In this document: positions 4,216 through 30,512 of the stretch, in pieces | Position numbering within the stretch: the stretch's first letter is position 1 | How the letters are laid out: each line of letters opens with the position of its first letter | Virus record (IMG/VR): IMGVR_UViG_3300042731_005698 | Location: 1-32,828 of that record | Length of the DNA: 32,828 bases | Source: a virus | Direction: 5' to 3' (one strand) | Made by a program: the position numbers and the translations under genes | Notes under the pieces: generated by a model | What the model was told of the DNA's origin: nothing | The model's input: the letters and a program-made list of their open reading frames with translations, nothing else | The model's database searches: none

Positions 4216-4232
4216 CTTCCCTCCATTAGTAA

Positions 4233-4286: not shown

Positions 4287-4907
4287 ATGAAGACCAAAAA
4301 TGATCGAGATCCGTATGAGTTGATATCCGCCTTGCAAAAGGATATCCGGCGTGGTAATGAAGAGAGTGCAATGCACTGGGCACTGGAATTATGTCCGCAG
4401 TTTGAATACTGGATGTGGCAGCGATTGATCGTAATTGCTCATGAAGACATCGGCATTGCAAACCCGGAGGTAATGGGATTGATCCCCACCATGCGCGATT
4501 CTTACATGGAGTTCCGAAGAAAAGGAAGAGGATCTGCAAGATTAGTGTTAGCCAATGCAATCCTCTTACTTGCGCGATCACCGAAGTCCCGCCTGGCTGA
4601 CCACTTTCAATGTGCTGTCAATCAAGACCTTTTGCATGGCGTTCGCTTTCCGATCCCAGACTACGCCCTGGATAAACATACCCGCCGGGGTAAACAGAAG
4701 GGTCGCGGGTTCGATCACTTCATCAACGTCGGCACTCACCTAGAAAATAAATCCATCTTATCAGATCCCTACGAAGAGCGTGCAGCCGGATGGTGGCGTT
4801 CAAATGAATTCATCGATGATAAATGGAAAAAACTGTCCGGTAAGAAAGACTCCCAGGATAAAGCCGATAGCGAAGAAAACAGTCCAACCCAAACGACGCT
4901 TTTTTAG
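4287..4907 (+). CDS. stand-alone RarA/MgsA C-terminal domain protein
   Basis: RarA (MgsA/WRNIP1) is an AAA+ replication-fork ATPase; this 206-aa protein lacks the ATPase and keeps only the C-terminal part. Residues 7-35 (DPYELISALQKDIRRGNEE...WALEL) match the helix that in RarA reads SAFIKSIRGSDPDAALYWLA. HEDIGIAN at 52-59 matches the SEDIGLAD motif, and ARSPKSRLA near 98 matches LAPKSN. The end is a Lys/Asp-rich tail. The start at 4287 fits the conserved promoter-leader layout. It could poison or recruit the host RarA tetramer, or act as a clamp-loader-like adaptor; that is inference. It is a one-gene transcript, ending in the terminator at 4930. Confidence 0.75.
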   Translation: MKTKNDRDPYELISALQKDIRRGNEESAMHWALELCPQFEYWMWQRLIVIAHEDIGIANPEVMGLIPTMRDSYMEFRRKGRGSARLVLANAILLLARSPKSRLADHFQCAVNQDLLHGVRFPIPDYALDKHTRRGKQKGRGFDHFINVGTHLENKSILSDPYEERAAGWWRSNEFIDDKWKKLSGKKDSQDKADSEENSPTQTTLF

Positions 4908-8757: not shown

Positions 8758-8940
8758 ATGGAAGATATCGCGAAGGTCAAGCGTGTGCTGAGAGCCTACT
8801 TTGCAGCCGAGTATGTTTGTAACTCTGGCATTCAAGGCAATCTGCGTCGTAAGAGATCCCAACAGAAGATCAAATTCAAACGCTGGTTGGTACGTTGGGC
8901 AAAGAGTGGATCTAATGGAGGTGAAGGAGTTGAACAGTGA
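8758..8940 (+). CDS. 60-aa basic protein
   Basis: Not recognised. Strongly basic (RRKRSQQKIKFKRWLVRW near residues 30-47), with two helices and a Gly/Glu tail; nucleic-acid binding is possible. GGAGGAA six bases upstream of the ATG supports the start. TGA overlaps the GTG of the LuxR-type gene. Confidence 0.6.
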   Translation: MEDIAKVKRVLRAYFAAEYVCNSGIQGNLRRKRSQQKIKFKRWLVRWAKSGSNGGEGVEQ

Positions 8941-9170
8941 GCAGGTACGAATTGACGAGACAAGAGCAAGCAATACTTGGGTTGCTATCGAGAGGGTTCC
9001 AGAATGCTCAGATCCAGGAAAGCCTGTGTATCAGCCGGAACACCTTGAAAACCCACATGCGTAATATCTTCGGTAAGCTGAACGTGGGTGATAGAACGCA
9101 AGCTGCATTATGGGGTGTGAAGCATAACTATGGTCAAACTGCCGAGCTTTCGCCCTACTGGGAGAGGTAG
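8937..9170 (+). CDS. stand-alone LuxR/GerE-type helix-turn-helix protein
   Basis: This 77-aa protein is nearly only a GerE domain: LTRQEQAILGLLSRG at residues 6-20, QIQESLCISRNTLKTHM at 25-41 with the recognition helix, and NIFGKLNVGDRTQAAL at 43-58. There is no receiver or ligand-binding domain, as in GerE itself. It is a good candidate for a middle-gene switch acting on phage or host promoters. GTG start overlapping the previous stop, with GGTGAAGGAG upstream. It is the only classical HTH regulator seen in the window. Confidence 0.88.
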   Translation: MSRYELTRQEQAILGLLSRGFQNAQIQESLCISRNTLKTHMRNIFGKLNVGDRTQAALWGVKHNYGQTAELSPYWER

Positions 9171-9174
9171 TCTA

Positions 9175-9462
9175 ATGGAAGAGAAAGAACCTACAATCAC
9201 GATGGTGTCACCAGATCCAGAAAACCGAAAGATCCTTGTTGTATATCGATACAACATCCCGGACGAATTAGTTACACCTACTGTCTCGGTAAAGCTATTC
9301 ATTGAAGATCACAACGCTGGAGTCGATCAAGAGTGGGTGATCACAAATAAAGAGCGGGTGCGCGATGAAATGGAAAGACCCGACGGTTATTATGTGACTT
9401 ACGAACCCCCTGGATCGAGTAGCGTAGAAGAAGAAGAAGAAGAAGAAGGGGAGCTTAATTAA
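9175..9462 (+). CDS. 95-aa acidic-tailed protein
   Basis: Not recognised. Predicted beta-rich core (ILVVYRYNIPDELV, SVKLFIEDH) followed by a tail with seven consecutive Glu residues encoded by seven GAA codons. That GAA run is also the left arm of an inverted repeat. I use the ATG at 9175 with GGGAGAGG before it. The poly-Glu tail may have been created by expansion of the repeat rather than selected for function. Confidence 0.65.
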   Translation: MEEKEPTITMVSPDPENRKILVVYRYNIPDELVTPTVSVKLFIEDHNAGVDQEWVITNKERVRDEMERPDGYYVTYEPPGSSSVEEEEEEEGELN

Positions 9463-9464
9463 GC
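9427..9464. repeat. inverted repeat, left arm (GAA x7 plus PacI-like palindrome)
   Basis: GAA repeated seven times (9427-9447), then GCTTAATTAAGC (9453-9464), itself a palindrome. The arrangement is repeated in reverse at 9808-9845. Confidence 0.75.
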
Positions 9465-9499
9465 CTATACGCATTGTTCCCTAGAGAGGAGTAGGAAAA

Positions 9500-9805
9500 A
9501 TGACCCCTGAGAAGAGTCGCGATATCAGTTTCGCGCACGCCCAGATGATAGCAAGATCCGAGCCGAACCGAGTGTTAGTCAGCTTTGATGGCACTGCCGT
9601 TCCAATGAAGAGAGCACTGGAATTGAACGTAGTTACCGACTATATATTCGTTCGCAAGGATGGTTGGAGCCTCGGTTGCCCTGGACACCTGGAAAGGCAA
9701 GCGCATAACCTGTGGCGTGGTGATTGGATCCTCGTCTACCAGGTTGTGAGTGACCTGGATCTCGCATATCCACTTTACCTGGCGCGAAGTGACGAAAGAG
9801 GTTAA
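9500..9805 (+). CDS. 101-aa ORF bracketed by inverted repeats
   Basis: Not recognised. It contains a short FDGTAVPMKRALELNV stretch and GWSLGCPGHLERQAHNLWRGDW; the composition is soluble and mixed. GAGAGGAG lies well placed before the ATG. The gene is enclosed by two arms of an imperfect inverted repeat (TTAATTAA plus GAA/TTC runs), as if inserted as a cassette. It lies at the 3' end of the operon from promoter copy 4, or is transcribed on its own from an unseen site. No transposase or recombinase features. Confidence 0.6.
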   Translation: MTPEKSRDISFAHAQMIARSEPNRVLVSFDGTAVPMKRALELNVVTDYIFVRKDGWSLGCPGHLERQAHNLWRGDWILVYQVVSDLDLAYPLYLARSDERG

Positions 9806-9807
9806 GT

Positions 9808-9845
9808 ACTTAATTAAGCGACTCTACTTCTTCTTCTTCTTCTTC
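9808..9845. repeat. inverted repeat, right arm (palindrome plus TTC x6)
   Basis: ACTTAATTAAGC (9808-9819), a short spacer, then TTC repeated six times (9828-9845). In reverse complement it mirrors the left arm, with a slightly different spacer between palindrome and triplet run. Confidence 0.75.
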
Positions 9846-9880: not shown

Positions 9881-9889
9881 CTATGGCGC

Positions 9890-9918
9890 TTGACAATTCG
9901 CCCAGACTGTGCGAAAAT
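9890..9918 (+). promoter_or_regulatory. early promoter module, copy 5 (divergent leader)
   Basis: TTGACA at 9890-9895, spacer ATTCGCCCAGACTGTGC, GAAAAT at 9913-9918. Unlike the other copies, the next real gene starts 90 bases later; at the normal place there is only a six-codon GTG frame. Confidence 0.8.
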
Positions 9919-10008: not shown

Positions 10009-10722
10009 ATGTCAGATTTTTATGACATCCTGGAAGAGTACGAGCAGCAAGAGAGCATGGGTGGTGGGATAGTTGGCAAAATCCTTGTGCAGTTAGGATG
10101 GAAATCTTTTATCCCGGGTATGGGAAATGAAGAGACCTTCTTTCACTATACGCCCGGTGATGAAGCATCCAAGAAAGCAGCAAAGGAACAGTGTCAGAAT
10201 CTTATCACCCAGTCTGGTGTCCCTAATCGCCCTCAAAATTGCATCCAGTTCCAGGTGTACCGAGACAGCGTATTAGGAAGAGATGTTACTTGGCAAGGTG
10301 ATCGATTCTTTGTTCACCCACTATGGACCGACGGTTACAAACAGATTGTCAAACCTGCAATGAAAGCAGCCGGGATGACTACCGTTGGTGAATACTGGGG
10401 TAGGATAGCTTTCGCAGATGATCCATCTGGTCGAATGGAAGAGGATCGAGAAGGAAACCCCCGCGTTGCTCAGATCCCGCATCTAGTCGAGATCTACCCC
10501 TCAAAGGAAGCTGCACAAAAGGCAGTCGAAGGTGGTGCAGCTGCAAGTCCTGAAGGTGGGGAAACCGTTGATACTGGAGTTCCACCTGGATGGACTAAAG
10601 ACGCGTGGGATTCCGTGAAGTCCGATATCCAAAAAGCCAAAGATGATGGTCAGGCACCCCCGACAATCGCCTCAGATTACGGTGTAGAAGTCAAATACAT
10701 CGTTCAAGCCCTGAGTGGCTGA
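10009..10722 (+). CDS. 237-aa protein of the recombination module, possible ssDNA-binding partner
   Basis: No family recognised with certainty. N-terminus MSDFYDILEEYEQQE, then a mixed alpha/beta region to about residue 170 (FFHYTPGDEASKKAA, WQGDRFFVHPLW, GEYWGRIAF), a Gly/Ala/Pro linker at 175-195, and a C-terminal segment APPTIASDYGVEVKYIV that looks like half of a helix-turn-helix. A very similar tail ends the RecA-like ATPase two genes on. Single-strand annealing/Sak4-type ATPases usually have an SSB gene nearby, and this gene is the best placed candidate, but that is inference from position. AGGAGG seven bases upstream of the ATG. Confidence 0.75.
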   Translation: MSDFYDILEEYEQQESMGGGIVGKILVQLGWKSFIPGMGNEETFFHYTPGDEASKKAAKEQCQNLITQSGVPNRPQNCIQFQVYRDSVLGRDVTWQGDRFFVHPLWTDGYKQIVKPAMKAAGMTTVGEYWGRIAFADDPSGRMEEDREGNPRVAQIPHLVEIYPSKEAAQKAVEGGAAASPEGGETVDTGVPPGWTKDAWDSVKSDIQKAKDDGQAPPTIASDYGVEVKYIVQALSG

Positions 10723-10833: not shown

Positions 10834-11664
10834 ATGATCATCGTTGATAACAGCGAAACCCGCGAAGGATCAAGATTGCCTAATATTGAAGGTGCAGTTG
10901 TGAGTGAGATCCTGGAAACTGTGACTGGTGCAGATATCATGATCAGTGCAATGGAGATCCCGCCCAGTACTCCGGTCCTAATCCAAAAACATATTGATAA
11001 TGGGGCACTGTTAGTCCAGAGGAAAAGCGGTGAAGATCTCGCAAGCAGCTTGGGTGCCAGGTTGAATGAGTCGCTTGCCAAGATGCGTGAAACTGGAGCA
11101 AGGCAAGCCCAGTGCGTTCTACTGTTCACTGGGATTCTAGAATGGCACAAAGGAAATCTAGCCACGATCAACGGAGTCAAATCCAGGAGTTCTTACTTTG
11201 CAATACTAGGCGGTCTAAGCAAATGGCACGATAGAGGGGGAGTTGTTGAATTCCTGGCGAATGATGACTTGATCCCTAAGTGGGTGGATCTGAAGCATAA
11301 GCACGTCAAGGAATATCAGGAGGTAAAGGAAAAGAAATTTCATCCAAAGAAGATAGACGTGGTTGAGGTTGATCCCGGAGATCCGTTGCAAGAATTGATC
11401 AAGGTCGAGGACTGGCGTGCAGTTGTGGCTAACATGCCCGGCGTTGGACCTAAGCGTGCTACTGCCCTTCGAGACACCATGTTGGAAGAGGGTGCAGCCG
11501 ATAACTTCATCACTGCGCTGGTGTGGTTAACCGAATTCGAATTGACTGAGAAAGTGCCGGGTATTGGAAGGAAGACCTGCGAAAACATAAGAGAGTTCTG
11601 TGGACTGGAAAATATTTATCATTTGTATGTGTCATTGAAAAATTTCCATGACCCGAAGGAGTAA
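10834..11664 (+). CDS. ERCC4 (XPF/MUS81-type) nuclease-fold protein with two HhH motifs, Glu-to-Gln at the active site
   Basis: 276 aa. An ERCC4 nuclease fold at residues 1-145: VDNSETREG at 4-12 matches the DxRExR start, and VQRKSGEDLASSL at 61-73 matches the signature (V/I)ERKxxxD. In this copy the Glu of ERK is Gln62, which in XPF-family enzymes is a metal-binding catalytic residue. A Lys-rich linker leads to tandem helix-hairpin-helix motifs at 201-209 (MPGVGPKRA) and 241-249 (VPGIGRKTC), the usual DNA-binding tail of this family. It would act on branched DNA in recombination, or only bind it if inactive. The GAGGAG before the ATG is good. The 111 bases upstream hold only a doubtful 22-codon frame (GTG at 10723). 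Confidence 0.85.
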   Translation: MIIVDNSETREGSRLPNIEGAVVSEILETVTGADIMISAMEIPPSTPVLIQKHIDNGALLVQRKSGEDLASSLGARLNESLAKMRETGARQAQCVLLFTGILEWHKGNLATINGVKSRSSYFAILGGLSKWHDRGGVVEFLANDDLIPKWVDLKHKHVKEYQEVKEKKFHPKKIDVVEVDPGDPLQELIKVEDWRAVVANMPGVGPKRATALRDTMLEEGAADNFITALVWLTEFELTEKVPGIGRKTCENIREFCGLENIYHLYVSLKNFHDPKE

Positions 11665-11670
11665 ATTTAC

Positions 11671-12705
11671 ATGAGTGAAAAAAGAGTGCCTGTCATTTCC
11701 GGGTTGATCCATGTAACGGGTGAGCCTGACACTGGGAAGACAACCTTCACCCTTGCCACTGGTGTCGAGCCTGAAAAGATCTGTTTCTTCGATAATGACT
11801 TGAAAACCCAGGCGGTCGCAGATGACCTAGCAGAAAGCGGTCACCCGTTTGGTTACTATGTCAACCTGGTGCGAGGCTTTGCACAATACAAGTATGCAAG
11901 CCCAATTGCGTTCCACGATTATGTAGTGGAATTACTAGACGCGATCCTGGCACAGAAAAAAGGCAATGTGTATCCGTTCCAGGTGTTCGTCTTTGATAAC
12001 TGGTCCAGAATGGAAGATGGGATTCGAGCGTATTCGTTGAAGGTCATGCCTCAGATCTCTTCCTTGACACCTGGTCAAATCCGCAATATGAGCCAGTTGA
12101 CGTGGCCGTACACCTATGCTTACTATGCTGAATTCCTGGACAAGCTGTTATCCATTGCCCCGACTGTATTCTTAGTAACTCACATCCGAGCTAAATACAT
12201 CGGTAGCAAAAAGACAGATCAAATCGAAGCACGTGGTCAAAGACCTTTGATTGAAAAATCAACCATGCGTGTTTGGATGCGTCACAATCCAGATAGTCCC
12301 GCGCCTATTGGTTTGATCCTAAAGCGCCCTCAGAAAATGGTGTTCGAAGGAGGTGCCCTGCTACCAGTGAGCATTCTCCCCAGACGAGTAAAACCTTGCA
12401 CCTGGGAGAAAATCGAGGAGTATTGGAGATCCCCTATCGGAAACACCACGCCAAGTCCCGAGGAAGTTCCAGACGAGTTTGAATTATCGATACTCGATGG
12501 AACACTCACAGAGGATCAGAAAGTGTCTCTGAGGTTAGCTCTGGTGTCTGCAGAACAGGAAGACGCGGAGGAAGCTGCGTTGCTACAAGCAATGGGTGAA
12601 GAGCTAAAAGAGCGTGTCCAAGCAATGCGCGCCGAAGGAATGTCGCCCCCAGTTATCGCGAAAGAATTAGATATTACAGTTGCGGAAGTAGGAGAGTATT
12701 CATGA
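11671..12705 (+). CDS. RecA-like P-loop ATPase (Sak4-type)
   Basis: 344 aa. Walker A GEPDTGKTT at residues 17-25; a FFDNDLKTQ segment at 39-47; Walker B-like FVFDNW at 106-111; FLVTHIRAKY around 167-176 corresponds to the sensor strand. This is the single-domain RecA/Sak4 pattern found in phage recombination modules, where the protein helps strand annealing. The C-terminal 100 residues are acidic and end in an HTH-like tail, SPPVIAKELDITVAEV, like that of the 10009 gene. AAGGAG upstream; the stop overlaps the next start (ATGA). Confidence 0.8.
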   Translation: MSEKRVPVISGLIHVTGEPDTGKTTFTLATGVEPEKICFFDNDLKTQAVADDLAESGHPFGYYVNLVRGFAQYKYASPIAFHDYVVELLDAILAQKKGNVYPFQVFVFDNWSRMEDGIRAYSLKVMPQISSLTPGQIRNMSQLTWPYTYAYYAEFLDKLLSIAPTVFLVTHIRAKYIGSKKTDQIEARGQRPLIEKSTMRVWMRHNPDSPAPIGLILKRPQKMVFEGGALLPVSILPRRVKPCTWEKIEEYWRSPIGNTTPSPEEVPDEFELSILDGTLTEDQKVSLRLALVSAEQEDAEEAALLQAMGEELKERVQAMRAEGMSPPVIAKELDITVAEVGEYS

Positions 12706-13085
12706 TAAAAGATGCAGATCTAATCCCCGAGCCGTTGCGTGAGGCGCTGCGTAATTATGCTGCAGTGCAAATGCAAATAGCCGAAGATCCCAAGGTCCGT
12801 GAAGCCCAGTTCCAATTGCACAAAGTAATGGAACACTACCAGGATCGTCTAAATGACCTGGCAAAATATATCAAAGCCCATGTGCTTGAGTTGGAAAACA
12901 GTGTATCCGTTTATGGTGTGACTGTCTCGCATCGAAGCGAGTATGATCGAGTCATGTGGAGTTCCGAGGATCTAAACGCCTTATATGAAATCGAAGAGAA
13001 CCAGGCGTTGCTAGATCCCGCTCGTAGCGTGAAAACCTACAAGCCTTCTGTAACTCTCAAGTACAAGCCAGTGGAGGAAACATGA
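12702..13085 (+). CDS. 127-aa hypothetical protein in recombination/actin operon
   Basis: Not recognised. The first 70 residues are a long helix with coiled-coil character (KVMEHYQDRLNDLAKYIKAH); the rest is beta-rich (VYGVTVSHRSEYDRVMW, TYKPSVTLKYKP). Both ends overlap neighbours by ATGA, so it is translated together with the RecA-like ATPase before it and the actin-like protein after it. A role as accessory to either is possible. Confidence 0.75.
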   Translation: MIKDADLIPEPLREALRNYAAVQMQIAEDPKVREAQFQLHKVMEHYQDRLNDLAKYIKAHVLELENSVSVYGVTVSHRSEYDRVMWSSEDLNALYEIEENQALLDPARSVKTYKPSVTLKYKPVEET

Positions 13086-14062
13086 AAGTAGGAATTGACA
13101 TCGGATATAGTGCAGTCAAGGTGCGAAGCAACATCATAAGATCTACTTTCCCAAGTGTTGTTGGCACCCCGGAAAGAGCACGTTTCAGCGTGCATGGTTC
13201 GAGCAGTGCAATGATCCTGGACATTCCCGACACTGGAAAATACCTGGTTGGATCTGGTGCAGTTGAGCAATCGCGAATGATCAAGCGCCGGGAAGATCGT
13301 CAGTGGATCTACAGTCAGGAATACTACACCCTCATGATTGCAGCAATGGTGACACTATCCGAGCAGTTGACTCCGAAGCTGAGTGTAGTCACTGGGTTAC
13401 CTGTAGCTTTCTACAGCGACCGTGAGGAGCTTCGCAGACGATTCCAAGCAGGTGAACACCGAGTAACCATGGATGGAAGGAGTACGCAATCCTTCGAGAT
13501 CCTGGAATGCCGAGTTGTCCCGCAGCCCTTTGGTGCATTGCTAAATGAAGTCCTAGACGATGAGGGTAACATTGCTGACGCAGCCCTGGCAGAGGGTAAG
13601 GTCGGTGTTATCGACTGTGGAGGGAAGACCACAAACCTACTCAGTGTTCATCGCCTGGCAGAGAGGGTGCGCGAAACTGCCAGTGTCAACATGGGTGGAT
13701 GGGATATTGTTCGAGCAATCCGAATGGTCCTGCAGGAAGAGGTACCCGAGTTGGACCTTCGAGATCATGAAATTATCAATGCTGTGATCAATGGTCATGT
13801 TGAGTATTATGGTAAAACCCATGACCTTGAAAAACAAATCGACGCGATTGTAGTTCCCATGGCAGAGCAAGTCATCGCAGAGGCAAGTCAGATGTGGAAT
13901 GGTGGAGCAAACCTATCACAGATCCTCATAACAGGCGGTAGCGCCTTGTTGCTTGGTAAGTTCCTGTTGAAGCATTTCCAACACGCCTACATTGTGGAAG
14001 ATCCTGTGTTCGGCAATGTCAACGGGTTCTATAAATTCGCACAAAGGTTAAGCAATGACTGA
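13082..14062 (+). CDS. actin-like protein of the ParM/Alp family
   Basis: 326 aa, normal length for ParM. All three actin-fold nucleotide motifs are visible: phosphate 1 IDIGYSAVKV (5-14), phosphate 2 VIDCGGKTTN (176-185) and the adenosine motif ILITGGSALLL (281-291). The sequence PSVVG near 24-28 and YLVGSGAVEQS near 54-64 are typical of ParM/StbA and phage/plasmid Alp proteins. Such proteins form dynamic filaments that push apart or position DNA molecules, with an adaptor protein bound to a centromere-like site. The genes behind it encode small DNA-binding proteins, at least one RHH, in the normal parM-parR order. No parC-like repeat array lies next to it. Confidence 0.9.
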   Translation: MKVGIDIGYSAVKVRSNIIRSTFPSVVGTPERARFSVHGSSSAMILDIPDTGKYLVGSGAVEQSRMIKRREDRQWIYSQEYYTLMIAAMVTLSEQLTPKLSVVTGLPVAFYSDREELRRRFQAGEHRVTMDGRSTQSFEILECRVVPQPFGALLNEVLDDEGNIADAALAEGKVGVIDCGGKTTNLLSVHRLAERVRETASVNMGGWDIVRAIRMVLQEEVPELDLRDHEIINAVINGHVEYYGKTHDLEKQIDAIVVPMAEQVIAEASQMWNGGANLSQILITGGSALLLGKFLLKHFQHAYIVEDPVFGNVNGFYKFAQRLSND

Positions 14063-14393
14063 AAAACAATTATCAATCCACTTGACACTGTTTGAGACCT
14101 TACACAAAGCTGTCAAAGCAAGAGCTTTCAAAGATAGACTTAGTATTGTTGGTCTAACGCGTAGAGCACTTCGTCAATACTTGGCAATGCAAAAAGATTA
14201 CGATCCTCTTGTGCCGGAAGGTTTCTACCCCATCGAGGCGTATATGAATGATAAGGGTAAGGTCGTTCTACTGGGAGATCCTAAACATGACTATCCACAC
14301 AGTTGTGACGAACGTGGTTGTTCATCAATCGGAGGTCATGTATTAGTCCAAACAACTATAGAAAATATCAGAGAGGCGTCCCAGTCGCAATGA
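14055..14393 (+). CDS. small probable DNA-binding protein behind the actin-like gene
   Basis: 112 aa. Residues 1-50 (KQLSIHLTLFETLHKAV, then LSIVGLTRRALRQYLA) fit a ribbon-helix-helix: one strand, a helix, a turn, a second helix ending in an Arg-rich stretch. The C-terminal half has CDERGC and no recognised fold. It overlaps the actin-like gene by 8 bases and the next RHH gene by ATGA. It may be the ParR-type adaptor or a regulator; the RHH call is from pattern alone. Confidence 0.65.
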   Translation: MTEKQLSIHLTLFETLHKAVKARAFKDRLSIVGLTRRALRQYLAMQKDYDPLVPEGFYPIEAYMNDKGKVVLLGDPKHDYPHSCDERGCSSIGGHVLVQTTIENIREASQSQ

Positions 14394-14683
14394 GAGTGCA
14401 AATGAGGTTTTCACTGGATCACAATAACGACGCGGACATCCTGGAATACCTGGATGGTCTTCCAACACATCAGCGGAGTGTTGTGATCCGTGATGCCTTA
14501 CGATCCTACATCCATCACGATGGTGTCACCCTGGGTGATATCTGGGAGGATCTGCAAGCGTTGAAAGCAATGAACATCAATCTGCAAGGTAGAGGTATTT
14601 CATTGAAGGAAAAAGAAAAGAAAGATCCAAGTGAGATCAGCGAAGACATCCTGTCAAACCTGGATCAGTTAGGAGTTAACTAA
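14390..14683 (+). CDS. ParR-like ribbon-helix-helix protein
   Basis: 97 aa. Residues 1-45 (RVQMRFSLDHNNDADILEYL, DGLPTHQRSVVIRDALRSY) are a clear RHH: a beta strand with RVQMRFSL, then a helix, a turn, and the second helix QRSVVIRDALRSYI. This is the usual ParR or MetJ/Arc layout. The rest is a charged helix-rich tail that could contact the filament. The ATG at 14390 overlaps the previous TGA; a longer in-frame version would overlap the upstream gene and is less likely. Best candidate for the adaptor between DNA and the actin-like filament. Confidence 0.75.
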   Translation: MRVQMRFSLDHNNDADILEYLDGLPTHQRSVVIRDALRSYIHHDGVTLGDIWEDLQALKAMNINLQGRGISLKEKEKKDPSEISEDILSNLDQLGVN

Positions 14684-15079
14684 ATGGAAAACGAACAATT
14701 ATTCTCGGTCTCAGAATTACGTAGGTTGCCTTTCACCAGGCGATCTCCGATCAAGCGTGAGCAAGTCCGAATGACACTAAATCCCCAGACGCTTAGTTGG
14801 CTGAAAGATTATGTCTACGTTGGTCCGGGTAGTGGGTATGGATCTATCGTGATGGAGTTAGGTCTTCGCCTTTTACTTTCCCTTTTGACTGCAGATTCGT
14901 TATCGATGATACAAATGTGTAAGGATCTAAAGCAAGCCTTGACCGAAGAGGGTTTTAGGAAACTAATTGATAACACCTGGATCTTAGTGTCATGCCTAGT
15001 AGGGGAAGATTCAAAGGATCTCAATGAGGAAGATATCACAAAGGCACTCGCGTCCGTACTTGCATCCGGGAAACTGTAA
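14684..15079 (+). CDS. third small DNA-binding-like protein of the actin operon
   Basis: 131 aa. After an N-terminal linker, residues 27-66 (VRMTLNPQTLSWLKDYVYVG...SIVMELGLRLLLSLL) fit an RHH with a longer loop containing GPGSGYGS. The C-terminal half is helical (MIQMCKDLKQALTEEGFRKL; ITKALASVLASGKL). The gene starts directly after the preceding stop. If it binds DNA like its neighbours, the operon carries three such proteins in a row. The operon ends at the hairpin at 15095. Confidence 0.6.
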   Translation: MENEQLFSVSELRRLPFTRRSPIKREQVRMTLNPQTLSWLKDYVYVGPGSGYGSIVMELGLRLLLSLLTADSLSMIQMCKDLKQALTEEGFRKLIDNTWILVSCLVGEDSKDLNEEDITKALASVLASGKL

Positions 15080-15094: not shown

Positions 15095-15125
15095 TGACAC
15101 CCCGAGTGCCTGCAGAGGGGTGTCA
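15095..15125 (+). terminator. 9-bp hairpin closing the actin/RHH operon
   Basis: TGACACCCC (15095-15103) pairs with GGGGTGTCA (15117-15125) over a 13-base loop. No T-run follows; it may be a weak terminator. The GTG/CACCCC theme is shared with the hairpin at 9852, both standing before a copy of the promoter module. Confidence 0.5.
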
Positions 15126-19445: not shown

Positions 19446-20093
19446 GTGCCTGCAGATCCCTCAGAACGCACGAAGTGGATATATGCTCAGGTAGATGAAG
19501 ATACACACCGAGCATTGTGTAGAAGAGCAACCGAGACAGGGTTGCACCCCTCAGAATTGATCGAACGTTATGTCACCCTCGGGTTGATCAAAGAAGCTGA
19601 AGAGTTGAAAAAAACTGGAAGCGAATTGAGTGTAGACCTGAGGGTTTTCAATGCCTTGCAAAACCTCCGTCGCAATGAACGGATCAAGGTTCAACTGCAG
19701 CAAATAGCTTTCCAACATCTACAAAGTCCAAGTGAAGAAACCGCAGATCTGCTAAACACCTTGTGTGAAGAGGCTAACATGACTGTTGAGGAAGTCTTAG
19801 CTGAAGCCCGAGACGCGACCGAAGTCCCATTGACTTACGATGATGGTCGAGGCGTCGCCAGTGCAATGGGATGGTTGAAAGGATACCTGACACCTGAAGA
19901 GGAATTCGCGGTCCGCGCCGTTGAGGTTGTCGCTGAAATGCAAGGTTTCAGTAAGGCAGTATTGAAAGAGGCAAAGCGAAGACTAGGAGTAATATCCAAG
20001 CGAAAAGCCCACAATTGGGTGTGGGTGTTACCAGAGGAAGATGCCGAGTATGAATTCAGCGATACCGATAACGAATCACATTACACCGAGTGA
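19446..20093 (+). CDS. RHH N-terminal and winged-helix-like C-terminal DNA-binding protein
   Basis: 215 aa. Residues 10-48 (KWIYAQVDEDTHRALCRRA, GLHPSELIERYVTLGLI) form an RHH of the CopG/Arc type. A long helical middle follows, and the C-terminal part (residues 160-203, GFSKAVLKEAKRRLGVISK, then WVWVLPEE) is a winged-helix-like segment resembling the tail found in some plasmid/phage replication or AAA proteins. GTG start at 19446 with AAGGAG eight bases before. Having a promoter overlapped by repeats directly upstream, it is probably autoregulated or binds there as replication initiator. It overlaps the DinG-like helicase gene by 53 bases. Confidence 0.75.
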   Translation: MPADPSERTKWIYAQVDEDTHRALCRRATETGLHPSELIERYVTLGLIKEAEELKKTGSELSVDLRVFNALQNLRRNERIKVQLQQIAFQHLQSPSEETADLLNTLCEEANMTVEEVLAEARDATEVPLTYDDGRGVASAMGWLKGYLTPEEEFAVRAVEVVAEMQGFSKAVLKEAKRRLGVISKRKAHNWVWVLPEEDAEYEFSDTDNESHYTE

Positions 20094-24627: not shown

Positions 24628-25524
24628 GTGGGAAAGAATAGTGCGATTGAATGGACCGATCATACCTTCAACCCATGGTGGGGTTGTATGAAAGTAAGTG
24701 CTGGTTGCGCGAATTGCTATGCTGAGGAAGTTTCAAGAAGGTATGGTTTTCATAAGATCTGGGGTGACAATACTCGGCGTCATTTCAGTTCTGGACATTG
24801 GCGAAAACCTATATTGTGGGATGCTGCAGCCGGGAAGAAAAGGATCATCCAAACTGTGTTCTGCGGTTCCATGTGCGATGTCTTTGAAATCCATCCACGT
24901 GATAAAAAAGCAATGGATCATAGTCGCCTCAAGTTGTGGTCTATGATCGAAACGACCCCTTGCTTGCTATGGTTGTTGCTAACAAAGCGCCCTGAAAATA
25001 TTATCGATCTAGTTCCGTGGAGTAAGGTCGAGGAGTGGCCTTACAATGTGGCAGTTGGAGTGAGTGTTGAAGACCAAGTATCCGCAAATCAACGTATCCC
25101 GGAATTGTTGAAGATCCCGGCAAGAGTGAGGTTCCTTAGCATCGAGCCTTTACTAGCTCCAGTGGACCTTGAGAGTGACATTAACTGGTTGTGGGAATTC
25201 AATGACTCATGGGAATATGGTCATAATCCCAAACCCCGAGATCCTGGAATTGACTGGGTGATCGTGGGAGGTGAAAGTGGATCGAAAGCACGATACTTAA
25301 ACCTGGACTGGATTCGAGATCTCCGTGATCAATGTTTCAACGCGAAGATCCCCTTTTTCGTAAAGCAGCTTGGTACAGCATGGGCACGTGAGAATTCCTA
25401 TGGATCTGCCAAAAAGGGTGAGGCATGGGAGTTGTGGCCTGAGGATCTTCAAATTCGCCAAAAACCATTGATCATGGCGACGAAAGACCTGTTTCCTGCC
25501 ACACAGAAGTCACTAGAAAGTTGA
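24628..25524 (+). CDS. DUF5131 (phage Gp37/Gp68-type) protein
   Basis: 298 aa. N-terminal WTDHTFNPWWGCMKVSAGC, NCYAE is the typical start of this family, with Cys20, Cys27 and Cys30 in a radical-SAM-like arrangement. Later motifs LLTKRPEN, NVAVGVSVEDQ, VRFLSIEPLL and WVIVGGESGSKAR are all standard for the family. The proteins are widespread in phages and mobile elements. A radical-SAM or related iron-sulfur chemistry on a nucleic-acid or metabolite substrate is suspected but unproven. GTG start with AGGGAGG upstream. Confidence 0.92.
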   Translation: MGKNSAIEWTDHTFNPWWGCMKVSAGCANCYAEEVSRRYGFHKIWGDNTRRHFSSGHWRKPILWDAAAGKKRIIQTVFCGSMCDVFEIHPRDKKAMDHSRLKLWSMIETTPCLLWLLLTKRPENIIDLVPWSKVEEWPYNVAVGVSVEDQVSANQRIPELLKIPARVRFLSIEPLLAPVDLESDINWLWEFNDSWEYGHNPKPRDPGIDWVIVGGESGSKARYLNLDWIRDLRDQCFNAKIPFFVKQLGTAWARENSYGSAKKGEAWELWPEDLQIRQKPLIMATKDLFPATQKSLES

Positions 25525-26206: not shown

Positions 26207-26632
26207 TTACGCTCTCTTCCCGCGTAACCCCAAAGTTTTGAGATTGTTGTATTCTTGCTGAGATCCCAACCAAGCTACAATAATTGTTACGATATGTTTA
26301 TAAACTGGTTGGACCGTCGCCAGTACCTCCGTTTGCTTCAGTAGATACTGAGCGCCAAAGGAAAGCCCGGCACCTAGCAGTACAACAATCCATGGTCGTA
26401 AAGACTCTGGCACATAGGTTCCCCAACCTGGAAGTTTTTCCAAGAAAATTGCCATCGCCCGACCTGCAACGTAGACAGCACCCGGACCTAGTGCAAGCCA
26501 AGTAAGGACTTCAATTAGGTCAGTAGGGTCTTCGACCTGGAACGCTGATAAGACAAGAATAGTGAGTACAGCGATCAATATCATTCCTAACAGGTTCGGT
26601 CTGAAAATAATGTGATCCTTCATTGCGCGCAT
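26207..26632 (-). CDS. multi-TM holin-like protein, last gene of late operon
   Basis: 141 aa with four hydrophobic segments: MILIAVLTILVLSAF (about 17-31), LTWLALGPGAVYVAGRAMAIF (about 42-62), WIVVLLGAGLSFGAQYLL (about 81-98) and HIVTIIVAWLG (about 112-122). A short basic tail ends LGLRGKR. Placed after the transglycosylase, it is a likely holin, but holins are too diverse to be sure. AGGAGGGA is before the ATG at 26632; a second ATG at 26623 has better spacing. The 5' end lies 113 bases inside the transglycosylase gene. Confidence 0.65.
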   Translation of the reverse strand: MRAMKDHIIFRPNLLGMILIAVLTILVLSAFQVEDPTDLIEVLTWLALGPGAVYVAGRAMAIFLEKLPGWGTYVPESLRPWIVVLLGAGLSFGAQYLLKQTEVLATVQPVYKHIVTIIVAWLGSQQEYNNLKTLGLRGKRA

Positions 26633-27356
26633 TCCCTCCTACATCAAATAAAGCAAGCCACTCCTCCGTACTTGCTATGTCGGATTCGTTCCAAGAGTAC
26701 ACCTTTTTCCAGGTTCCGTCAAATATACTTTGCCGGAAATGTGGCGTCCAAATTCTCAGGATTCGATCTGCATAAGCGTATCCACCTTTGGTCCCACATC
26801 GATCCTGGCTAAGATACTCGGTTCCACAGTTGTAAAGTGCCAATGCAGTTCGCAGGCTGTAATCATTCTCAACGTTGAATGGGAGCTCGTAAGCGTCAAG
26901 CAAAACACCTATACCAACCTTTACATTTGTCCATGGGTTTAGTAATTGTTCCTTGGTATAACCCCTCCATTTGAAAGGTGCCACCGCCATTAGTCCAACA
27001 GATCCAACCCGATCATAGGGTAGGTCGAGAGTTTTGTGTGGATCTACTAGACCAAAACTTTCTTGCGCGATAATACCAAGTATGACACTGGGGTGAATGT
27101 TATGGACCAGCATCATATCTGTATAGTTGTAGGTCTCTGATACCATCGAGACCAATGGCAGCCAACGCAGCACCCGTTTCACAGTATAGTATTCGGACGG
27201 CTGTAAAGTAGGGAGTGGCGTGGGGGTTGGAGCAACGAAACCCCCGCCTCCCCCAGGATCTAGTTCCCTGGATTCTCCCAATGCCGTAGGCACTAAGAAG
27301 AAAGCTACTAGAAGGAGTAATACGGTTAGTATTACTCCAAGATCTCTTCCGTCCAT
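26520..27356 (-). CDS. SLT-type lytic transglycosylase
   Basis: 278 aa. N-terminal membrane segment (VILTVLLLLVAFFLVPTALG, 8-27) may be a signal anchor, followed by a Gly run and a PTPTPLPT linker. The SLT fold has ES at 99-100 in IIAQESFGL (catalytic Glu99), GLMAVAPF at 121-128 (compare GLMQ) and ALYNCG at 173-178 (compare AYNAG). It cleaves peptidoglycan glycan strands. Residues beyond about 240 overlap the holin-like gene in another frame and do not look domain-like. Start at 27356 overlaps the end of the LCP gene; no good ribosome site is seen, so it is probably coupled to it. Confidence 0.85.
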   Translation of the reverse strand: MDGRDLGVILTVLLLLVAFFLVPTALGESRELDPGGGGGFVAPTPTPLPTLQPSEYYTVKRVLRWLPLVSMVSETYNYTDMMLVHNIHPSVILGIIAQESFGLVDPHKTLDLPYDRVGSVGLMAVAPFKWRGYTKEQLLNPWTNVKVGIGVLLDAYELPFNVENDYSLRTALALYNCGTEYLSQDRCGTKGGYAYADRILRIWTPHFRQSIFDGTWKKVYSWNESDIASTEEWLALFDVGGNARNEGSHYFQTEPVRNDIDRCTHYSCLISVPGRRPY

Positions 27357-28312
27357 TGTCTGAGGTCTACGAGAGGTCGAATAGTGCTTGCTCCAGTTTC
27401 CGTAGTGTAAAATTCAACCTCTTCGCCTAACTCGAAAGTCTCTGGGAAGTACGCAGCGCCTTTTATTTTTGTTACAAGACCTAGAAGACCTACAATCTCT
27501 TCCAGTTCAATAGAGGTTTTCACAGAAGTTTTGAAGTTCTCCAGGATTGCTGGACCATGACCCTCAGCAATCGCCGGGAGTAACCCATTGCGAAAGCCAA
27601 GTATTGAATCATGGAAGCGTTTGATCCGATCTTCAAAACCGAAGCCCCGGTGCCGAACATAGCAAAGCGCCTGGACACCGTTGAGCTTGTAATCCTGGTC
27701 AGAATCGAGATCCAGGATAAACTTGAAATCCCGGTCGTAATACGGACAAACCTGATTGAAATCCTGGTAAGGTCTTATAATTAAGTTCATCTGGTCCACA
27801 ATATCCATGTAGCCCAAAGGATCTACAACCGCGACCCCTGCGTTGACATCCAGTCCAAAAGTCCGCGCAACAGTCATCCTAACCCCATCGAAACCGCCAA
27901 CGTGGTAAGCTGCATTGATCCGGTCCTGGTAGTATCCCTCCATGTTTGGATCATACACCTGGACCAAGAGATCCCGAGGCACGTAAATCATGTGGATCCT
28001 CGCCGGATTCTCTATTCGATCCTCATAAACAATCGCGGTGATGATAATGAAAGCGTCAGTTCGAGCACCCCAACCAAAACTATCCCGGTCTACGCCCATC
28101 AAAACAGCAGTGTAACGTTTACCTGGATCTGGAGTTGGAACAGAAGTAGGAGTATTGGTTGCAGGCAAAAAAGGAGTCGGCGTGACCGTCACTTCCTTAG
28201 TTGGTAAAACGATGGGTGTTGAGGTGACTGTTGGTTCGACAACTTCCTGAGTTTCTACCACCGATTGACAACCTGACAACAAAATTGCAAGTGCTAGTAT
28301 TACTCGTCGCAT
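27332..28312 (-). CDS. LytR-CpsA-Psr (LCP) family lipoprotein
   Basis: 326 aa. GGAGG five bases before the ATG at 28312 fixes the start; the upstream in-frame ATG at 28324 contains that ribosome site. Signal peptide with lipobox LLSGC, Cys15. A long TP-rich linker spans residues 27-63. The LCP domain shows the family landmarks: LMGVDRDS (71-78), ARTDAFIIIT (83-92), YVPRDLLVQV (110-119), RINAAYHVGG (131-140), and YVRHRGFGFEDRIKRF later. LCP enzymes attach polymers to peptidoglycan from undecaprenyl carriers. A phage copy could disturb wall-polymer attachment or modify the host surface. Flanked by lysis genes. Confidence 0.9.
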   Translation of the reverse strand: MRRVILALAILLSGCQSVVETQEVVEPTVTSTPIVLPTKEVTVTPTPFLPATNTPTSVPTPDPGKRYTAVLMGVDRDSFGWGARTDAFIIITAIVYEDRIENPARIHMIYVPRDLLVQVYDPNMEGYYQDRINAAYHVGGFDGVRMTVARTFGLDVNAGVAVVDPLGYMDIVDQMNLIIRPYQDFNQVCPYYDRDFKFILDLDSDQDYKLNGVQALCYVRHRGFGFEDRIKRFHDSILGFRNGLLPAIAEGHGPAILENFKTSVKTSIELEEIVGLLGLVTKIKGAAYFPETFELGEEVEFYTTETGASTIRPLVDLRQWTEEILE

Positions 28313-28433
28313 ACAAGCCTCCATAAGATTAGATTAGAAAGTGGGAGGGGAGTCGGCGTCCGGTGTGGCGCCTAACGTGAAAATACTACAGTTTCAGAGA
28401 AAACTGCAGCAGTACCATAGTGCTATAGGATCA

Positions 28434-28718
28434 TCAAGCAGTACCTTGATTCGTCTTGCCATTGATCTCGTCAAAAGCAGCGACGATAGCTGTTTGTATC
28501 GATCTGCTTTGACCTTCGTTGAGTTCTTTCACTAGTTCCTGAGCAAGCAACTTGGTTTGATTGTCGGCGTGCTTTTTTAGCTCATCGACATAACCTTTGG
28601 GTACTATCTGTCCTTTGATAAAAGCCCAAAGCCCTGCTAGTAACACGGTGATAATTCCTCCATCTTTGATCAATTCAACAACGCTCGTAGCAGTGTTGAT
28701 GTCAGAACAATCTGTCAT
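28434..28718 (-). CDS. small single-TM holin-like protein next to lysin
   Basis: 94 aa. One hydrophobic stretch (GGIITVLLAGLWAFIKG, 20-36), then a charged helix of coiled-coil type (VDELKKHADNQTKLLAQELVK). This layout, directly behind the lysin gene, is common among phage holin-like proteins. Starts three bases after the lysin stop. Bases 28313-28433 hold a small hairpin-like sequence (CAGTTT/AAACTG) but no gene or clear promoter. Confidence 0.65.
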   Translation of the reverse strand: MTDCSDINTATSVVELIKDGGIITVLLAGLWAFIKGQIVPKGYVDELKKHADNQTKLLAQELVKELNEGQSRSIQTAIVAAFDEINGKTNQGTA

Positions 28719-30512
28719 TCATTCAACCCTCTCAGACCAATTTTCGTGGATCGATGACCAGGTTGTGCGTGAGATATCATGAGCACCCCATGGCCACTCA
28801 CCACCAGTGTCTTCGTAAACCGAAAAGATTGTGCCATTCACCATCGCAAACCGGACAATTGTACCCTCCGTCCCGATAGCATTCCTGGCATTCAACCCAC
28901 CAGCAGTGACTCTCCGACGCTGCAGTAATTGTACTGAAAGGTTCTCACCTGAAACTAAATGCCCTAACCACAACCAAGGGTTCATAAAGTCCCCGTTCAG
29001 GAAGGTTTCACCCCTTCCTTTTGCTCCCTGGCATATCACGCCAAAGTGCAAGTGTGGTCCAGTGCTATAACCACTTCTACTACCAACACCACCGCTCAGT
29101 CCAATAATTTGTCCAGTCTCAACAACGTCACCGACATCAACCAATAACTGACTCAAATGTGCATAGATCGTCGTGTAAACTCGAAGTGTTTCATTGTGAT
29201 CACGTGCTTCCAATTCAATCCTAACATGATCACCATACGGATCATAGTCCGGTCGATCCGGTCTGTATCCCGAGACTGTCACCCTCCCTTTGTGTGACGC
29301 TATAATCGGCGTTCCAACTTCAATTGCCCAGTCTAATCCGTCATGACCCCCAACACCTTGATAGTTGTGGATATTCTTGTTGAAATCCTGGCTGAGTCGA
29401 TATTGCGATAGTGGCGGTGTCAGTGGAGATCCCAAAGAAAAGCCGGGTATCTGAGGGGGTGGAGTGGGAGATCCCTCTTCCAGAGCAGTTATGCGTTCAT
29501 CGTGATAGTCCAGGCGTTGATTGTCGATCTGTAGACTCTGGAAGATAAGAGCCTGTTGTCCTTCCAAAGATGACACCCTTTCCTGGAGTAGCTGGATCTC
29601 AACAGAGTTCTGTTCGACCTGTTGTTCCAAGTCACTTGGTTCTTCACCATTGCCGGGTTCTTCCTCGATGCCCCAGTTTTTCTTGAACAATGCCGGATCT
29701 GACTGCCAACGGTTTCCGTCGATTGCCTTGCTAGTTGCTCCGAAGAGACCACCTTTTAAGAAGCTAGTTGTCTGATGTTCCATAACTTGATCCTCAGTCA
29801 CTCCATTCGGACGTGCAGGCGGTCCGGGATGCTCCCTGCCAACTTCCTTCGAGTACCAGTGTGCTAACCACCATTTTACATAGGTGAACCAGCCCTGGAA
29901 TTCCATGTAGTTATTGACAAACCAGGCACCACTGTAAACCCAACACTCCTTGTTGGAATGAGTTTGAACGTAATCGATGAAATCCCAGGCAAGTAGAGAA
30001 AGTTCCCTCGGTGTAGCACCATCCCTGCGCTCGATGTCAATAACGAATGGTCCCTCTCCCCAGTCATCTTGTACTCGGTGGAAGGACTGCAGGAAAGCCC
30101 TACCTTGTGCGATCCCGCTTTGATCTCCCCGGAGGTACCAGTAAGCCGAGCGTGGCTTTCCAACTCGTTTCGCTTGCGTCCAGTTGAAAACGAAGCGACT
30201 GTCCAGGTGTTCCGTACCTCCTCCAGAACGGATGTGCACAGCCTGGACAGTCGGATCTCCGAAAGCTGCCAGGATATCCCAGTCAATTTCCCCCTGGTGT
30301 GAAGATAGATCCAGGATCAAGATCCTTGGATCTACCGGGTCAGGTGGGAATGGTTGGGGTTCCGCTGCAGCAGCAGCCACTCGCCCAAGAATCGGAACAC
30401 CGAAGAGGCGTTCCGCCAACGAAGGTGGCTGATAAATTCCGGCGTTGAGTGGGATAAATAAACCTTCTGTTACCCTCTCAACAGTCAGTCGAGGATCAGG
30501 TCGATAGATCAT
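28719..30512 (-). CDS. dual-enzyme endolysin: GH25 muramidase plus M23 metallopeptidase
   Basis: 597 aa. A GH25 domain at about residues 62-280: ILDLSSHQGEIDWD (66-79) with Asp68, and VIDIE at 157-161 with the acidic pair Asp159/Glu161. A Glu-rich coiled coil follows at about 290-345, then a PTPPP linker. The M23 peptidase has H390 and D394 in GHDGLDW, YAH at 450-452 and GPHLHF at 485-490, all zinc ligands. The last 80 residues (LNARNAIGTEGTIVRF) look like an SH3b-type wall-binding domain. It would cut both glycan and peptide bonds of peptidoglycan, either as released lysin or tail-associated. Start overlaps the previous gene by ATGA. Confidence 0.93.
   Translation of the reverse strand: MIYRPDPRLTVERVTEGLFIPLNAGIYQPPSLAERLFGVPILGRVAAAAAEPQPFPPDPVDPRILILDLSSHQGEIDWDILAAFGDPTVQAVHIRSGGGTEHLDSRFVFNWTQAKRVGKPRSAYWYLRGDQSGIAQGRAFLQSFHRVQDDWGEGPFVIDIERRDGATPRELSLLAWDFIDYVQTHSNKECWVYSGAWFVNNYMEFQGWFTYVKWWLAHWYSKEVGREHPGPPARPNGVTEDQVMEHQTTSFLKGGLFGATSKAIDGNRWQSDPALFKKNWGIEEEPGNGEEPSDLEQQVEQNSVEIQLLQERVSSLEGQQALIFQSLQIDNQRLDYHDERITALEEGSPTPPPQIPGFSLGSPLTPPLSQYRLSQDFNKNIHNYQGVGGHDGLDWAIEVGTPIIASHKGRVTVSGYRPDRPDYDPYGDHVRIELEARDHNETLRVYTTIYAHLSQLLVDVGDVVETGQIIGLSGGVGSRSGYSTGPHLHFGVICQGAKGRGETFLNGDFMNPWLWLGHLVSGENLSVQLLQRRRVTAGGLNARNAIGTEGTIVRFAMVNGTIFSVYEDTGGEWPWGAHDISRTTWSSIHENWSERVE

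Follow-up and report, generated by a model that had tools for sequence, protein, structure and literature searches.

The window, as the whole analysed stretch of viral DNA is called here, comprises 32,828 nucleotides of IMG/VR record IMGVR_UViG_3300042731_005698. Its nearest relative was contig IMGVR_UViG_3300037518_000230 (60,209 bp), designated G001, which encodes terminase, portal, tape-measure and virion proteins. The ends of G001 overlap by 127 bp and the contig was therefore read as complete circular or terminally redundant, a status not marked in the search output. The window carries an operon whose apparent limits are the promoter-like repeat at 9884 and a hairpin after its last gene, p3. 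The features of the operon and of the DNA preceding it are:

9426..9475, plus strand: site A, with a GAA tract, CTTAATTAAG and CTATACGCATT; a DNA match between the window and G001
9804..9845, plus strand: site B, an inverted copy, CTTAATTAAG then a TTC tract, approximately 45 bp before the operon promoter
9884..9918, plus strand: operon promoter-like repeat, TTGACA-17-GAAAAT, one of six near-identical copies
10009..10722, plus strand: first operon gene, a conserved phage protein, function not assigned; 51% identical in G001
10834..11664, plus strand: ERCC4/HhH nuclease-like protein (Pfam HHH 1.6e-5, ERCC4 6e-4)
11671..12705, plus strand: AAA_24 ATPase with a C-terminal HTH-like stretch (Pfam AAA_24 2.4e-7); syntenic in G001
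12702..13085, plus strand: 127-aa protein overlapping the parM start, described from sequence and coordinates only
13082..14062, plus strand: parM, a ParM-type actin-like filament protein of 326 aa (Pfam, PHROG and PDB matches; relatives 45-58% identical)
14055..14393, plus strand: p1, 112 aa, overlapping the parM stop and the parR start; window-specific
14390..14683, plus strand: parR, a 97-aa adaptor with an N-terminal RHH and a C-terminal LDQLG tail (homologues, NCBIfam ParR, PDB profile)
14684..15079, plus strand: p3, an undescribed 131-aa protein, possibly RHH, that follows parR in related phages
15095..15125, plus strand: hairpin just after p3 (9-bp perfect inverted repeat; fold z = -3.66)

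The reading frames of 12702 and parM, parM and p1, and p1 and parR overlap at their starts and stops, while parR and p3 abut. An earlier note on this DNA had placed the small genes directly after parM, and both the gene order and the tight coupling were borne out by the junction sequences, ATGACTGA at parM/p1, ATGA at p1/parR and TAAATG at parR/p3. The hairpin, which has no clear T-run, is the probable end of the operon. Rfam and tRNA searches gave no matches. The order in G001 was the 10009 homologue, ERCC4, AAA_24, parM, parR, p3, the 15260 homologue, UvrD, the 18666 homologue, the 19446 homologue, DinG and primase, with no counterpart of 12702 between AAA_24 and parM. The ERCC4-like gene has a homologue upstream of parM in G001 and in contigs L030, L031 and L032.

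The product of parM had been described as an actin-like protein with three nucleotide motifs, a description confirmed by family matches and invariant residues. The protein matched Pfam ALP_N (4e-25), an MreB-like (actin-like) C-terminal domain (1.9e-12), PHROG 691 'partition protein' (1.7e-54) and NCBIfam ParM PRK13917 (5.5e-28, under the curated cut-off of that model). A profile built from the protein and eight close relatives matched the solved ParMs 6ixw (pCBH, 1e-27), 3js6 (1.6e-20) and 1mwk (R1, 2.5e-5). Its solved relatives include pCBH and pSK41 ParM. The conserved residues in the three motif stretches, D6, G8 and K13, D178, G180 and T183, and G285 and G286, were, together with Q148, invariant across the close relatives. 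Five of them (Q148, G180, T183, G285 and G286) were also invariant in distant phage and plasmid ParMs. The motif observation consequently holds, and the nucleotide-binding residues, when checked in the alignment, were retained. By these matches the protein is a real ParM-type protein and is a predicted ATPase and filament former.

Relatives of ParM were found by scanning viral contigs with an alignment of the conserved motifs; scans of the viral contigs with the single ParM, ParR, UvrD and DinG proteins returned no relatives, and a nine-row alignment was too divergent for scanning. The conserved-motif scan gave eight IMG/VR contigs with ParMs 45-58% identical, and further contigs were found afterwards. 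A scan of genomes gave MAGs of Anaerolineae, Thermoflexales and other Chloroflexota, two Aminicenantes MAGs and distant Geobacter-type loci, and many ParM relatives lie in Chloroflexota-linked contigs. The Chloroflexota-centred ParM clade had a support of 97/96, with the window and G001 as sisters (99/96). Since the clade is centred on Chloroflexota, the window phage probably infects a member of this group, a reasonable but indirect assignment; binning errors are possible in MAG contigs.

Of the three small proteins, which the earlier note had taken as successive adaptors, only the product of 14390 is identified as a ParR by its homology. Its profile matched NCBIfam ParR (4.3e-4) and PDB 2q2k (1.6e-4), which we take to be pSK41 ParR. 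A homologue adjoins parM in G001 and in most relatives, where the neighbouring proteins align with that of 14390; p1 intervenes in the window, while parR directly follows parM in G001. The C-terminus ends in an LDxLG-type tail in most relatives, and in characterised ParRs the C-terminal tail binds ParM (PMC5016525). These ParR models, the adjacency to parM and the conserved tail agree with the prior assignment of a ParR-like RHH protein. The strand of the putative RHH reads M-R-[VI]-Q-[ML]-R-F-S-L, and the predicted DNA-facing residues Q, R and S, assigned by the alternation expected of RHH proteins, are the same in the window and G001. By sequence, then, the 13082 and 14390 proteins belong to the ParM and ParR families.

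The protein between them, p1, had been considered a probable RHH protein, an assignment that was not upheld. It had no Pfam, PHROG or PDB match, and its AlphaFold model was of low confidence (pLDDT 51) and lacked an RHH. No homologue was found in eight related contigs or in GenBank phage records, and p1 is absent between parM and parR of G001, the nearest syntenic relative, in which parM overlaps parR directly. It is probably an inserted accessory gene peculiar to the window. Unrelated small genes also lie between parM and parR in L014, L015, L030 and a Moorella phage, so the gap between the two genes is a recurrent spot of insertion.

The third protein, p3, belongs to a family with five members, all on phage contigs, that recovered one another in leave-one-out HMM searches with E values of 7e-6 to 6e-13, computed at a search space of 1000. 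It lies directly behind parR in four of the five contigs (the window, G001, L030 and L031). In the fifth, L029 (4553-4903), p3 is near ParM and no ParR was found. A further contig, L032 (6908-7629), has a ParM with no detectable ParR; a small protein and an HTH_17 protein are present instead. Of the 20 other related contigs or genomes that were searched, 17 gave no p3, nor did any of 396 host-class genomes, and the final scan of viral contigs gave no p3 relatives beyond G001. The earlier description of p3 as RHH-like was left half standing: the register against ParR is plausible by hhalign (P = 0.099), while there was no Pfam match, the AlphaFold model (a strand then helices) had a pLDDT of 57 and a Foldseek search with this model gave no match at E <= 0.001 and nothing usable. 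An RHH fold is thus suggested by the register only. The family is a separate, new, small one, and p3 is a predicted companion of ParR. The three adaptors were in this way replaced by ParM, ParR and a conserved companion, p3, with p1 inserted.

The cluster resembles the type II ParMRC systems of R1, pSK41 and pCBH in that the nucleotide residues of ParM are kept and an RHH-type ParR with a conserved tail lies close behind. It differs in several respects, 1) it is phage-borne and lies within a replication/recombination operon, 2) it has an additional conserved gene, p3, 3) p1 is inserted between parM and parR and 4) no tandem parC iterons were found. The search for parC-like repeats, which had been proposed as a check, gave no tandem array in the window or G001. 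What lies upstream in both is a non-canonical, paired GAA/TTC element. As no parC of the canonical kind was detected, full membership of the ParMRC class is not established.

The element was the only match outside conserved genes in a whole-genome blastn comparison of the window and G001, the two genomes in which its conservation was compared (82% over 50 columns, E 6e-6). The left part of site A overlaps the end of ORF 9172-9462, while the corresponding stretch of G001 overlaps none of the ORFs found in that genome. CTTAATTAAG occurs twice in the window, at sites A and B only, and CTATACGCA-type motifs accompany the GAA/TTC tracts. The longest triplet tracts were the GAA/TTC tracts, of 23 and 19 nt in the window (at most 12 nt in shuffled sequence) and 23 and 22 nt in G001 (at most 14), and in both genomes they form inverted pairs just upstream of the operon. 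The tract is missing from 12 other related contigs. A shared site would be expected of a centromere, as the DNA-facing residues of ParR are the same in both phages, and the GAA/TTC-CTTAATTAAG element is put forward as a candidate ParR binding site or centromere. The alternative that the element serves as a replication origin is taken just as seriously. The GC-skew minima, at 7.5 kb in the window and at 48 kb in G001, lie away from the element.

The six 35-bp promoter-like repeats (TTGACAATTAGCCCATACTGTGCGAAAAT) lie at 4227, 5016, 6056, 7030, 9884 and 15207. They scored 49-56 bits in a PWM scan, in which the next best site scored 14.6 and the shuffled maximum was 13.4. Their spacer is conserved within the window, with the dyad GCNCA-N3-TGNGC, while the equivalent promoters of G001 have AAATGGACATTT in a completely different spacer. 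A search for the repeated promoter in viral contigs gave none. The possibility that the six repeats constitute a dispersed parC was set aside, since the G001 spacer differs though the DNA-facing strand of ParR is the same. The change of spacer points instead to a phage-wide regulator with altered specificity and argues against a ParR site. A small LuxR-type (GerE) DNA-binding protein encoded at 8937-9170 of the window is a candidate regulator of the repeats. The RHH-like protein at 19446-20093 is 50% identical to its G001 counterpart; its putative DNA-reading strand, YAQV in the window and SASL in G001, could match the changed spacers. A stand-alone MgsA/RarA C-terminal domain protein (4288-4907; Pfam MgsA_C 4e-13) follows one of the repeats.

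The repeats also bear on the role of p3, which could be a regulator of the operon or of transcription throughout the phage that shares the transcript and has nothing to do with the filament. The six near-identical repeats indicate that a regulatory scheme exists, and L029 keeps p3 where ParR was not found. Against this, p3 of L030 still follows parR immediately even though parM lies 2 kb upstream, and the window and G001 have a similar putative p3 strand but completely different promoter spacers. A role in regulation alone is rated as possible, at well under an even chance. Most likely, p3 would be a second DNA-binding protein that acts at the same site as ParR or in control of the operon.

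Downstream of the operon are genes for UvrD, a clamp-like protein, the RHH-like 19446 protein, a DinG-type helicase and a Prim-Pol primase. For the clamp-like protein, the match of 18666 was only sub-threshold. The interpretation that we favour, with somewhat better than even confidence, is that the genes make up a type II (ParM–ParR) DNA-moving module of a tailed phage, probably one of Chloroflexota. In the proposed mechanism, 1) ParR would use its N-terminal RHH to bind the phage DNA at a specific site, for which the upstream GAA/TTC–CTTAATTAAG element is the candidate, 2) its C-terminal LDxLG tail would recruit and cap ParM filaments, 3) the filaments, we infer, would push or position copies of the phage DNA and 4) p1 would be an accessory insertion. 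The module would act during extrachromosomal replication of the genome because it is made with a nuclease, an AAA ATPase, helicases and a primase. A more elaborate version, in which ParR and p3 cooperate with ParM on a centromere of paired inverted GAA/TTC–CTTAATTAAG elements as a replication-coupled, three-protein variant of type II partition, is considered unlikely.

The DNA-moving module could serve either of two lifestyles. No tyrosine (PF00589) or serine (PF00239) recombinase was found in six phage contigs (the window, G001 and L029-L032), in accord with the earlier observation that an integrase is lacking, and this absence fits both a plasmid prophage and the positioning of DNA during lytic growth. 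The phage-plasmid lifestyle suggested previously was left as one of the two candidates: the failure to find a recombinase agrees with it, while no plasmid replication initiator and no tandem parC were found and the module lies in a replication/recombination operon. Only a 33-kb fragment of the genome is present in the window, and the remainder could hold an initiator, integrase or centromere. Partition proteins alone are no proof of a plasmid prophage (PMC8026635). Partition of a plasmid-like prophage was given about an even chance.

The plasmid prophages IEBH and B83 of Bacillus are precedents for tailed phages in which a small RHH protein accompanies a ParM-like one (PMC8026635, PMC6669507). 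IEBH has no recombinase, and none was found in the window phage. In B83, parM is preceded by iterons and a plasmid-like replication initiator is encoded; neither feature was seen here. Such reported recombinase-free plasmid prophages with ParM plus RHH count against the other reading, that the filaments transport or cluster phage DNA as it replicates in infected cells and have no role in inheritance. So do the Chloroflexota parM–parR loci of MAGs and IMG/VR (L011-L017 and L044-L053), which share the ParM clade and, where it is present, the ParR tail: these close relatives lie in MAG contigs and mobile elements, several have FtsK-like genes beside ParR, three carry a tyrosine recombinase, none has p3, and partition is the simpler role there. 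Positioning in the lytic phase is in turn favoured by the coupling of the module to replication/recombination genes, the lack of an integrase match in the syntenic phage, the absence of both p3 and the 10009 protein from the 396 host-class genomes and the finding that SPO1, phage G and a Bastille-type phage each have a ParM homologue followed by a small gene. Its analogues are the ParM genes of large virulent Bacillus phages and AlpAC of the Corynebacterium prophage CGP3, an induced-phage precedent for an actin-like protein acting on phage DNA, with a supporting deletion phenotype (PMC4446434). AlpAC–alpS resembles the window cluster in having a phage actin-like protein, a DNA-binding adaptor, a link to phage DNA replication and a site upstream of the operon (here a candidate). 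CGP3 differs in that it is integrated and excises via an attachment site, while no integrase was found in the window phage, and the third conserved gene after the adaptor is a feature of the window phage. Positioning during lytic growth was judged to have a little less than an even chance.

A third use of the module, interference of the phage ParM–ParR with resident plasmids that use a related pair, would draw on the approximately 55% identical ParMs of Chloroflexota genomes and mobile elements. The N-terminal sequences of ParR and the probable sites differ between the branches, and such exclusion is regarded as very improbable.

To our knowledge, phage actin-like genes are common and few have a studied role; no studied phage filament of a Chloroflexota-linked phage was found in the literature searched. 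The ParM–ParR pair itself is a known kind of machine, and the new leads are its partner p3 and the conserved upstream DNA element, a third component and a candidate cis site. If p3 joins ParR, type II partition gains a second adaptor; if it is not a partner, the cluster is still a case of ParM–ParR wired to phage replication.

Elsewhere in the window, a GH25 plus M23 enzyme, an SLT transglycosylase and a LytR-CpsA-Psr protein, all in one phage, are encoded at 26520-30512, and a DUF5131 protein (Pfam 1.1e-67, phrog_2045) at 24628-25524.
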